From NCBI GenBank assembly GCA_017557435.1, contig JAFYYR010000009.1, positions 1 to 61,984 on the forward strand: DNA of 61,984 nucleotides. Direction: 5' to 3'. Positions 38,846 through 61,745 of the stretch are shown here, piece by piece; position 1 is the first letter of the stretch; each line of letters begins with the position of its first letter. The position numbers were made by a program, and so were the translations under genes. This stretch comes from Pseudobutyrivibrio sp. GTDB taxonomy: Bacteria; Bacillota; Clostridia; Lachnospirales; Lachnospiraceae. A model generated the notes under the pieces. That model was not told where the DNA came from. It saw only the letters and a list, made by a program, of their open reading frames with translations, and made no database searches.

Positions 38846-38979
38846 GACTAGACACTCCCAGATTTGCTAAGCAAATCTGGGAGGTACCGTCTGTCGACGA
38901 TACTACATGTAAATAAAAAAGTCCTAGATAGGAAATAAATTTCCATCTAGGACTTTTATTATTTACATTTTGTCTAGTC
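38846..38979 (-). ncRNA. Structured 3'-UTR module, copy A
   Basis: On the minus strand an outer stem (GACTAGACA/TGTCTAGTC, 38846-38854 with 38971-38979) encloses three hairpins. First comes a terminator-like one (38908-38967, with stem AGTCCTAGAT/ATCTAGGACT flanked by TGTAAATAA/TTATTTACA). Next is a short GTACCGTC/GACGATAC hairpin (38884-38903), and last a CTCCCAGATTTGC/GCAAATCTGGGAG hairpin (38855-38883). The same plan recurs at 39064-39191 and 60406-60525 with different sequences. It lies downstream of the displaced tuf tail. The type is a proposal. Confidence 0.55.
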
Positions 38980-39063
38980 TCGTTACTCGCGACTAGTATA
39001 ATTTGGGTTGGGCTGTTCAATTAAAATAATTAATTGATTTTTTCATTTTATCTCCTAACTATC

Positions 39064-39191
39064 CACGAACTCAGATTGCTTCGCAATCTTCATGTTCGCG
39101 TCTGTCGCCGCAAACAATCATGAAATAAAAAATGCTCAGCTTCAAGCAAGCTTGTGCTGAGCATTTTAATTATTTCATTAATTAGTTCGTG
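39064..39191 (-). ncRNA. Structured 3'-UTR module, copy B
   Basis: The outer stem CACGAACT/AGTTCGTG (39064-39071 with 39184-39191) encloses a terminator hairpin (AATGCTCAGC/GCTGAGCATT, 39131-39140 with 39156-39165, T-rich tail on the minus strand), a small hairpin with GCGACAGACGC, and a GATTGC/GCAATC hairpin. It follows directly after the stop codon of the displaced tuf fragment, so it is probably the native tuf terminator region. Confidence 0.58.
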
Positions 39192-39206
39192 TCTCGTTAC
39201 TCGCGA

Positions 39207-39260
39207 CTATTCGATGATTGTAGCAACACGACCAGAACCTACTGTTCTACCACCCTCACG
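39207..39260 (-). pseudogene. tuf: Displaced 3' end of tuf
   Basis: This codes for the last 17 residues of EF-Tu ([17 protein letters not shown]) and a TAG stop. It is identical over 50 bp (39211-39260) to the end of the intact tuf gene at 47562-47611. After that the two differ: here GAA TAG, in the intact gene GAG TAA. Upstream of 39260 the sequence is not tuf. It is the original chromosomal tuf tail separated from the gene by element integration. Confidence 0.92.
39211..39260. repeat. Left attachment-site direct repeat
   Basis: This 50-bp sequence is a perfect match to 47562-47611. It starts within the penultimate sense codon region of EF-Tu and ends at an Arg codon. It is the integration core or contains it. 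Confidence 0.9.
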
Positions 39261-39384: not shown

Positions 39385-39407
39385 CTAAACAAAAAGTCTC
39401 ATATATA

Positions 39408-39454
39408 AGAAAAAGACTCTGGGCCCTTCGCTAAATCCAGCGATGGGTCGAGTC
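39408..39454 (-). terminator. Terminator of the nuclease gene
   Basis: A long imperfect stem with GACTC/GAGTC ends and an inner TCGC/GCGA helix (39415-39454) is followed by TTTTTCTT on the minus strand. Confidence 0.75.
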
Positions 39455-39501
39455 CTATCTTGACTATAGAATATCATAAATTCAGAAAATGTCAACTTCC
39501 T

Positions 39502-39894
39502 CTACTTTGGTGGATACTTTAAAAGCTCCCCATTCTTTCTGATCACATACAATTTCTTTAAATATGGGCGTGAGTAAAACTCTTTCTCTAATTGGGATAT
39601 ACATTGCTTCTCTGGCAATTTAGTATGTCTCAAATCAAATATGATGTATTTTGATTGCTGTACAGCCTTTCTAAAGTTATCCTCAATAGTTCTTTTTCCA
39701 TTACCAAAAGGACACTTCATTTCCCATTCAACACCTTCCATTCTAATGTCTGGTGTATGATTTCCAGGTATACTACTAGGTTTTAGAAATGTAATATTCT
39801 TACCTAATTCTGCGAAGTATTTAGCCATTTCAAACTCATGTTTTTCTGGCGGTGTATTTAAAGCTGATATATCAATTCTGCCCACATTTGACAT
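39502..39894 (-). CDS. PD-(D/E)XK nuclease-like protein, CdiA-CT type
   Basis: This 130-residue protein resembles stand-alone CdiA C-terminal tRNase domains: helix FEMAKYFAELGKNITFL, then TPDIRMEGVEWEMKCP, whose PD...E-x-K is the nuclease core, then KAVQQSKYIIFDLRHTKL. In contact-dependent inhibition this domain cuts tRNA. Here it has no export domain and no recognisable protein immunity gene beside it. A short RNA gene with tandem hairpins and a terminator lies just upstream on the same strand (39962-40084). AAGGAG is 13 nt before the ATG, a weak start. Toxin activity is inference. Confidence 0.68.
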   Translation of the reverse strand: MSNVGRIDISALNTPPEKHEFEMAKYFAELGKNITFLKPSSIPGNHTPDIRMEGVEWEMKCPFGNGKRTIEDNFRKAVQQSKYIIFDLRHTKLPEKQCISQLEKEFYSRPYLKKLYVIRKNGELLKYPPK

Positions 39895-39961
39895 ACTTAA
39901 GTGAATTCTCCTTTATATAACGTTTTATCAGTTTACAAATAATAGAATGAAAAATCAAGTA

Positions 39962-40084
39962 CAAAAAAATGACGGGGTAAATCCCCGTCAGCCGGTGGAC
40001 CAGAGTCTTTCGACTAGCCCTAAATATTTGACGGGCGTCCTGCCCGCGGATATGTGGACCCGGGTCTTTCAACCAGTCCTAAGT
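39962..40084 (-). ncRNA. Tandem-hairpin RNA upstream of the nuclease gene
   Basis: Two 59-nt units lie head to tail. Each has a 24-nt hairpin with a GAAA loop (40056-40079 and 39997-40020) followed by a GC-rich hairpin (40030-40046 and 39971-39989). Both GAAA hairpins fold identically: 5 bp, a 2-nt bulge, then 4 bp, with a compensatory G-C to A-T change. The last hairpin with TTTTTTT is a terminator. A promoter stands at 40091-40119. The transcript would be about 120 nt. Confidence 0.7.
39963..39989 (-). terminator. Terminator at the end of the tandem-hairpin RNA
   Basis: The perfect stem GACGGGG/CCCCGTC with a 5-nt loop is followed by ATTTTTTTG on the minus strand. It lies about 70 nt before the nuclease start, so some readthrough may express that gene. 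Confidence 0.88.
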
Positions 40085-40090
40085 GATATA

Positions 40091-40119
40091 ATAATATCAA
40101 GCATTATATACTTATTCAA
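40091..40119 (-). promoter_or_regulatory. Promoter of the tandem-hairpin RNA
   Basis: On the minus strand the -35 box is TTGAAT (40114-40119) and the -10 box TATTAT (40091-40096), with a 17-bp spacer. The expected start is about 40084, just before the first hairpin unit. Confidence 0.65.
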
Positions 40120-47557: not shown

Positions 47558-48745
47558 TTACTCGATGATTGTAGCAACACGACCAGAACCTACTGTTCTA
47601 CCACCCTCACGGATAGCGAATGTAAGACCCTGCTCCATAGCGATTGGGTGGATGAGCTCGATTGTCATCTCTACGTTATCGCCAGGCATGCACATCTCTG
47701 TACCTGCTGGAAGCTCGCAAACACCTGTAACGTCTGTTGTTCTGAAGTAGAACTGTGGACGATAGTTGTTGAAGAATGGAGTATGACGACCACCTTCATC
47801 CTTTGTAAGAACGTAAACCTGAGCTGTAAACTTTGTGTGGCATGTTACAGTACCTGGCTTAGCAAGTACCTGTCCACGCTGGATCTGGTCACGGTTAACA
47901 CCACGAAGAAGTGCACCGATGTTATCACCAGCCTGAGCCTCATCAAGAAGCTTACGGAACATCTCGATACCAGTTACAACAGTCTTCTGTGTATCTTCCT
48001 TGATACCGATGATTTCAAGTTCGTCGTTAAGGTGAAGAACACCACGCTCTACTCTACCTGTAGCAACAGTACCACGACCTGTGATTGTGAATACGTCCTC
48101 TACTGGCATAAGGAATGGCTTATCTGTCTCACGCTGTGGATCTGGGATGTACTCATCAACTGTGTTCATGAGTTCCATGATCTTGTCGCCCCACTCGCCG
48201 TTTGGATCCTCAAGAGCCTTAAGAGCTGAACCCTTAACGATTGGACAATCGTTGAAGTCATACTCCTCAAGCTGCTCTGTAACTTCCATCTCTACGAGCT
48301 CGATAAGCTCCTCATCATCAACCATATCACACTTGTTAAGGAATACTACGATGTAAGGTACACCTACCTGACGTGAAAGAAGGATGTGCTCCTTTGTCTG
48401 AGCCATAACACCGTCAGTTGCAGCAACAACGAGGATAGCACCATCCATCTGAGCAGCACCAGTGATCATGTTCTTTACATAGTCAGCGTGGCCTGGGCAG
48501 TCAACGTGTGCATAGTGTCTCTTCTCTGTCTGGTACTCAACGTGAGCTGTAGAGATTGTGATACCTCTTTCTCTCTCCTCTGGAGCCTTATCGATGTTCT
48601 CGAAGTCTACCTTTGCGTTACCAGATACTCTCTCTGCAAGTACCTTTGTGATAGCTGCTGTAAGAGTTGTTTTACCGTGGTCTACGTGTCCGATAGTACC
48701 GATGTTACAATGTGGTTTGGTTCTGTCAAAATGCTCTTTTGCCAT
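47558..48745 (-). CDS. tuf: Elongation factor Tu
   Basis: EF-Tu is the GTPase that delivers aminoacyl-tRNA to the ribosome. The 395-residue length is normal; the G1 motif is [10 protein letters not shown]3 DCPGHADY, and G4 NKCD. It is last in the str operon and has its own promoter (48813-48841). The final 16 codons are part of the 50-bp attachment repeat, so the C-terminus now present may derive from the integrated element; the protein is unchanged. Confidence 0.99.
47562..47611. repeat. Right attachment-site direct repeat (within tuf)
   Basis: These 50 bp are identical to 39211-39260 and cover the last 16 sense codons of tuf and two bases of the Glu codon. Outside the repeat the sequences diverge at once on both sides. 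Confidence 0.9.
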
Positions 48746-61563: not shown

Positions 61564-61611
61564 GAATTTTTCCTCCTTATAATTTTTAGTGTTGCTTATA
61601 TGAGGATAAGT

Positions 61612-61745
61612 AAAAAAACCTCTATGCCATGAAGACATAGAGGTTGATTAATCGATAAATACTTAATCGTCCTCGGCTGGTAGAGATAATCTCTTTACGG
61701 CTAACGCCACCTGCTGTCTTCGGCAACAACTTTATGCATTATATC
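61612..61745 (-). ncRNA. Ribosomal L10 leader with attenuator
   Basis: The region upstream of rplJ contains the conserved L10-leader element (GCCGAAGACAGCAGGTGGC on the minus strand, about 61705-61723, followed by the GTAAAGAGATTATCTCTAC arm). It ends in a perfect terminator hairpin (AACCTCTATG/CATAGAGGTT, 61618-61645) with TTTTTTT. Binding of L10-L12 to the first part is known to favour repression of rplJL. Confidence 0.88.

Follow-up and report, generated by a model that had tools for sequence, protein, structure and literature searches.

A small CdiA-type nuclease gene and the hairpin RNA behind it: a probable RNA-antitoxin module in Pseudobutyrivibrio

A contig of Pseudobutyrivibrio sp. 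(JAFYYR010000009.1, analysed over a stretch of 61,984 nucleotides (nt), here called the window) carries on its minus strand a small PD-(D/E)XK nuclease gene of the CdiA toxin fold and, directly behind it, a hairpin RNA of about 55 nt preceded by a promoter-like sequence of its own. This two-gene locus is probably an RNA-antitoxin module, consisting of a nuclease toxin and an antitoxin gene encoded 3' of it. The RNA would most likely bind the nuclease and keep it inactive. If the supply of RNA stopped, through loss of the island that carries the module or through a block of transcription, for example during phage attack, the nuclease would be set free and could cut a nucleic acid target, possibly transfer RNA (tRNA). 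Two further hairpins upstream of the gene, belonging to the DUF3800-XI RNA family, would be carried alongside as a neighbouring cargo gene. The parts of the proposed module are as follows.

39502 to 39894, minus strand: nuclease open reading frame (ORF), candidate toxin; 130 amino acids (aa), stand-alone PD-(D/E)XK protein with P48 D49 ... E58 x K60
39468 to 39495, minus strand: promoter-like sequence of the 3' RNA, TTGACA-16-TATTCT, starting 7 nt past the nuclease stop
39408 to 39461, minus strand: 3' hairpin RNA, candidate RNA antitoxin; model match at 39405-39456, own T-run terminator, 5' end placed from the promoter

The association of the RNA with the nuclease is constant among close homologues. 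Nuclease homologues were found in genome contigs at 35 loci from 34 draft genomes, some of which are close relatives (L092/L094/L095/L097; L088/L093/L099) and represent fewer independent lineages; five survey loci (L059, L060, L061, L062 and L064) were judged the same places as L088, L092, L099, L103 and L100, because their coordinates agree, and were not counted twice. The hairpin follows the nuclease stop at 35/35 of these loci, its core starting 27-85 nt past the stop, and the flanking genes differ between them. The 62 bases after the stop are identical in the window and three relatives (0/62 changes); over the 393 positions of the nuclease gene, the same alignment shows 24, 68 and 65 differences, most of them at third codon positions. 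RNA and protein divergence are correlated across 28 loci (Mantel rho 0.651, 0/999 permutations). A further nuclease, at L170, also has its own 3' RNA.

The RNA folds according to the pattern GGCUC-GA-CCC-A-CUGCU-GGAU-AGCGG-A-GGG-CCCA-GAGCC-UUUUU. When 36 sequences, 29 of them distinct, are aligned, pairing holds in 96.0% of cells, whereas slid partners give 41-52%; both sides have changed in 8 of the 13 pairs, and 0/500 shuffles reach any of the five measures used. A covariance model built from 36 RNAs recovers its own training set (the window and the 35 loci), as expected, and in addition L034, on which it was not trained. A model of only 12 RNAs, hand-chosen, finds the RNA at 25 of 26 other nuclease loci, some of them close relatives of training loci. 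Searches of Rfam gave no match for the RNA of the window (Rfam 15, E up to 1) or for those of L091, L102, L108 and L109 (E up to 10). The RNA is a single unit at most loci, with extra copies near the nuclease in L090, L091, L099, L103, L106 and L109, and one copy is present in the window's own genome. In L109, one further copy is preceded, at a distance of about 60 nt, by a skipping-rope RNA (RF02924, positions 485-564). Mimicry of the tRNA T-arm, suggested by the GGUUCGACCC-like 5' arm, was considered and dropped, because the U of the motif is paired and covaries from U-A to C-G.

The 3' RNA looks like a gene of its own. Over 36 loci, the best sigma-70-like promoter before it scores on average 9.75 of 12, compared with 8.1 for shuffled sequences, and the -10 element ends 10-11 nt ahead of the start of the RNA model in 28/36. 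For RNAs without a nuclease the means are 9.09 and 7.83 (11 scored of 12, as L149 starts at a contig end). The shuffles used here, and in the duplex-energy test described below, keep single letters only. If it is transcribed from this sequence, an RNA gene behind the nuclease with its own promoter could supply RNA in excess of the nuclease message without any read-through of a terminator.

The protein itself belongs to the CdiA_C family, matching Pfam PF18451 (E 1.3e-15) and containing the PD...ExK motif; PF18451 is the sole Pfam family in 31/31 aligned members, and CdiA-CT is the clear best match of the predicted fold after the Foldseek matches were re-examined. A first, sequence-only reading of this DNA had already described it as a CdiA-CT-like PD-(D/E)XK nuclease, correctly in this respect. 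Structures of ToxN type are absent among the Foldseek matches listed, ToxN-type chains not having been compared directly. The CdiA_C nucleases are known from polymorphic toxins with protein immunity. The 130-aa ORF stands alone and does not fit a contact-dependent inhibition system, in which the domain is part of a large CdiA protein accompanied by a CdiB transporter and a CdiI immunity gene. In the neighbourhood (2.5 kb), no cluster of proteins of at least 60 aa is common to more than 5 of 36 nuclease loci, which leaves the 3' RNA as the only constant partner observed. In L088, L090, L093, L096 and L099, the gene directly ahead of the nuclease encodes a helix-turn-helix-like protein of about 105 aa.

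Searches of other collections with the nuclease yielded little. The window protein has no match in PADLOC (one of 31 aligned members matches weakly, E 0.0013) or NCBIfam and no credible match in a sequence search of the PDB, and a plasmid search for relatives found none. Eleven phage records hold relatives, all from Streptococcus phages at no more than 34% identity, with the feature names minor capsid protein (1) and hypothetical protein (10); in viral contigs none were found at the sensitivity of the search tool used. At L037 (1492-3081), a related nuclease domain makes up the C-terminal end of a phage minor head protein, with no such 3' RNA nearby.

The distribution of the two genes is asymmetric. 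Among nucleases of at least 46% identity found in the surveys, none lacks the 3' RNA, and shortened nucleases keep it: L034 has an internal deletion, L111 matches over residues 5-83 only, and L090 contains a remnant. The RNA is present in 5/250 genomes of the same family and 7/382 of the class, the window's own genome being included in both, and its 16 distinct places there divide into 8 with a nuclease inside the 3-kb locus and 8 without. These counts are lower bounds, as RNA-model surveys over 40 genomes used stricter filters, and extra copies of the RNA (e.g. G643:C19) were examined in part only. In three genomes where the RNA lies without a nuclease nearby (G034, G080 and G360), no nuclease was found genome-wide at E 1e-3, a negative that for G034 and G080 presumes an identical draw of the 250 genomes. 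G116 has only a 36% homologue elsewhere in its genome and G487 only a partial 38% match, while G506 and G382 contain lone copies of the RNA together with nuclease-RNA pairs. A toxin that is not seen alone and an antitoxin that sometimes is: the pattern resembles that of toxin and antitoxin.

Three viral contigs also hold the 3' hairpin (L194, 3616-3656; L196, 181-221; L195, 9526-9574), and one search of viral contigs with a broader pattern found nothing new. L194 and L196 carry phage-like genes, and their hairpins have no T run; that of L194 immediately precedes a gene, and in L196 an open frame at the contig end contains or follows the hairpin. The L195 hairpin is near a homing endonuclease gene; a tRNA-like stretch after it was not confirmed by ARAGORN or Rfam. 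These viral copies may be decoys or regulatory sites, and three contigs prove nothing.

How the RNA would act on the nuclease was also considered. Antisense action on the nuclease messenger RNA (mRNA), as in type I systems, was rejected: over 35 loci, RNA-mRNA duplex energies are like those with shuffled mRNA; the mean z is 0.16 when only the start region is taken and 0.06 over the full mRNA, and z falls below -2 at 0/35 and 1/35 loci, respectively. With no antisense match, the RNA would more likely act by binding the protein.

Several observations weigh against an antitoxin role. The comparison of neighbours leaves room for protein partners smaller than 60 aa, which were not looked for. The 12-RNA model misses L113, which reaches 30.2 bits in a model that includes it, and finds L106 only at E 0.013. 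RNAs without a nuclease are few in number; 4 of the 11 scored (L164, L171, L175 and L190) have no clear promoter, and one lone RNA, the extra copy in G506, has a nuclease-RNA pair about 2.5 kb away. The distant homologues L035, L036, L037 and L063 (at most 38% identity) lack the RNA, so the RNA is no general requirement of the domain family. Finally, the RNA might be a cis-acting part of the nuclease mRNA, or serve the nuclease as a cofactor rather than a block.

Of these last two, the cis element is unlikely but not far-fetched. The RNA would then be a terminator, a stabiliser or an autoregulatory binding site of the nuclease mRNA, with no separate antitoxin, which suits its invariable position at the 3' end and the fact that it reads as an intrinsic terminator. 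The phage contigs L194 and L196, where the hairpin stands before a gene or in or before an open frame, also fit a role in cis. However, a promoter-like sequence precedes the RNA, copies without a nuclease exist, and the letters of the internal loop (GACCCA / AGGGCCCA) are kept, which a plain terminator would not require. It is quite unlikely that the nuclease is an RNA-dependent enzyme with the 3' RNA as its cofactor or guide. Constant pairing and strong conservation would suit a ribonucleoprotein equally, but no variable guide segment is seen in the RNA alignment, the RNA occurs without the nuclease and persists beside shortened ones, and the CdiA-CT-type toxin of the closest fold is not known to need an RNA cofactor.

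The sequence-only reading had looked upstream of the gene, where it saw a promoter, two hairpin units, a terminator and the nuclease in the layout of type III toxin-antitoxin loci. These features are all present, in that order on the minus strand; the 3' hairpin RNA (~39461-39408) and a promoter-like TTGATT-17-TAAACT (39958-39930) had been missed.

40091 to 40119, minus strand: promoter of the DUF3800-XI RNA unit, TTGAAT-17-TATTAT, kept in L079
40033 to 40080, minus strand: DUF3800-XI RNA copy 1, RF02975 at 36.8 bits, E 1.8e-6, 1 bit under the gathering score
39974 to 40021, minus strand: DUF3800-XI RNA copy 2, RF02975 at 54.5 bits, gathering score 37.8
39963 to 39989, minus strand: intrinsic terminator of the DUF3800-XI RNA unit, stem and T run
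39930 to 39958, minus strand: possible nuclease promoter, TTGATT-17-TAAACT, between terminator and ATG

The two hairpins, spaced 59 nt apart, both score with Rfam RF02975 and form a unit distinct from the nuclease module; it belongs to the known DUF3800-XI family and lacks a DUF3800 gene at this locus. The hairpin region folds better than shuffled sequences (z -2.71, 2/200 shuffles equally good). The stretch between terminator and ATG possibly contains a promoter of the nuclease gene itself, judging from sequence. Its hexamers are kept in all four aligned relatives (TTGAAT in L080), two of which have no upstream RNA. It can be called only a possible promoter, since 20-21 of the 65 positions between terminator and ATG differ in two relatives without the upstream RNA and its score of 8 of 12 is about the level of shuffles from other upstream stretches.

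It is very unlikely that this tandem RNA serves the nuclease as a type III antitoxin, with read-through of the terminator setting the ratio of RNA to toxin. Its order of promoter, two RNA copies, terminator and gene does resemble AbiF with two motif copies, as described in PMC12373285. A covariance model trained on 38 RNAs that do not adjoin the nuclease detects DUF3800-XI RNA upstream in 5 of the 35 loci (L079, L088, L090, L093 and L099, L090 weakly at 27.9 bits), where a rough estimate of chance gives ~0.005 matches within 1 kb, and changes in the first copy between the window and L079 mostly keep pairing. In the genomes of the closest relatives without the RNA in cis (L080, L081 and L082), RF02975 occurs elsewhere, at 1, 3 and 1 places, 4 of these 5 (L128, L129, L137 and L141) without DUF3800; the RNA could thus still act from a distance in the L080 and L081 genomes. 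Against such a role, no DUF3800-XI RNA was detected within the fetched upstream stretch of 30/35 nuclease homologues, or anywhere in 19/34 of their draft genomes, and the frequent occurrence of homologues without the upstream RNA is what the first reading had itself named as speaking against its proposal. Two close relatives with proteins of 88 and 90% identity, L080 and L081, have an intact nuclease gene with no DUF3800-XI RNA unit nearby. In Pseudobutyrivibrio xylanivorans DSM 14809 (L079), RNA and nuclease stand behind a gene that also lies upstream of the nuclease in Pseudobutyrivibrio sp. MD2005 (L081), which has a complete nuclease ORF but no RNA unit there. A helix-turn-helix-like gene intervenes between RNA and nuclease in L059 (identical with L088). 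What is constant is the RNA on the 3' side of the gene, behind its own promoter-like sequence; conservation therefore does not extend to the type III layout. The idea of a nuclease paired with an RNA is supported, with the 3' RNA as the partner and in another arrangement; the upstream hairpins are of a known family.

The usual neighbour of DUF3800-XI RNA is DUF3800, which is not universal. It was sought with a profile built from the neighbours of other copies, three full-length ones of which match Pfam PF12686 (DUF3800), and no such gene was found within 1.5 kb after the copy in the window. RF02975 is present in at least 38/250 same-family genomes and at least 12/391 of the class, own genome included in each case; these counts too are lower bounds because of the stricter filters. 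Its 68 places comprise 2 of the window itself, 2 by the nuclease, 2 not fetched (G120:C6:133558 and G089:C242:2102) and 62 others without a nuclease. Downstream of these 62, DUF3800 is full in 23, a fragment in 16 (L015, L017 and L019 may be cut by the contig end) and absent in 22, with one contig ending too soon; 39/62 thus have a full or partial gene. The RNA beside fragmentary or absent DUF3800, as in L004, L006, L011, L014, L030, L032 and others, would fit an antitoxin-like half of that pair too. If the module proposed here is right, it also points to a role for this RNA family, whose members occur beside intact, fragmentary or missing DUF3800 genes. DUF3800-XI RNA and 3' RNA lie close together in the window and L079, and in L088, L090, L093 and L099. 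In G487 (L066/L186), a 3' RNA without nuclease is located 3' of a complete DUF3800-XI RNA and DUF3800 unit, and in G080 (L055/L182) another is divergent from such a unit, about 150 nt apart. The closeness of both families, which recurs in several lineages, would be explicable by shared islands or equally by a functional link.

As cargo, the module of the window occupies one edge of an element of about 8.4 kb integrated at the end of tuf; the element is flanked by direct repeats of the tuf 3' end (39207-39233 and 47558-47584) and holds integrase, helix-turn-helix, DnaC-like, Mob and zinc-ribbon genes (functions of integration, mobilisation and replication). The idea that the 3' RNA belongs to mobile or repeat-like sequence and stands behind the nuclease by chance is hardly credible, for all that the module sits in such an island and RNA copies without nuclease exist, given its fixed place at all 35 loci between differing flanking genes. 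Repeats ending in TCTCGTTACTCGCGACTA occupy 38956-38995 and 39170-39209, one of them beside a strong inverted repeat (38917-38957). Elsewhere in the window, 61604-61741 is an ordinary ribosomal protein L10 leader.

More tentatively, the module might represent a new class in Lachnospiraceae and related Clostridia, in which a CdiA-type PD-(D/E)XK nuclease is held by a 3' hairpin RNA. Lone bacterial RNAs and the hairpins of phage contigs would then be antidotes or decoys, and the upstream DUF3800-XI RNA a second, orphan antitoxin against DUF3800 toxins in the same island. In the titles and beginnings of abstracts of the literature matches listed, the RNA-nuclease pair is undescribed; these leave aside the tables of PMC8040213, a survey of thousands of candidate RNAs. 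If the proposal is true, RNA antitoxins reach a nuclease family known from toxins with protein immunity. Moreover, an antitoxin need not be upstream or repeated, and searches restricted to the upstream side would miss such systems.

Compared with known systems, the module shares with type III (ToxIN, CptIN, TenpIN) a small RNA beside a nuclease and the lack of a shared protein partner, and its RNA would, as in those systems, neutralise the toxin through protein binding. It differs in its mostly single RNA unit, where type III antitoxins are tandem repeats, and probably in its toxin, predicted to have a CdiA-CT-like PD-(D/E)XK fold. It also differs in layout, since type III is defined by one promoter, an RNA upstream and a terminator between (PMC5086642); here the constant RNA is downstream behind a promoter-like sequence, and the window itself shows the type III order with a possible extra promoter. 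The RNAs of ToxIN, AbiF/RCd22 and AvcID are described as acting by binding protein (PMC5086642, PMC12373285, PMC10511110). The module would resemble AbiF/RCd22 and AvcID, in which the toxin has no relation to ToxN and is inhibited by a structured RNA (PMC12373285, PMC10511110). However, RCd22 is described as lying upstream, with two motif copies and a promoter shared with its gene, AvcD as a deaminase, and neither AbiF nor AvcD as a CdiA_C nuclease. The DUF3800-XI RNA (RF02975) is the same family as the two upstream hairpins, whose usual DUF3800 follower is absent here. The CdiA-CT PD-(D/E)XK toxins (4G6V, 1026b type), of which CdiA-CT 1026b is described as a tRNase (PMC9086364), differ from the present locus, where a stand-alone gene with an RNA beside it has neither a large carrier protein nor any protein neighbour shared between loci.
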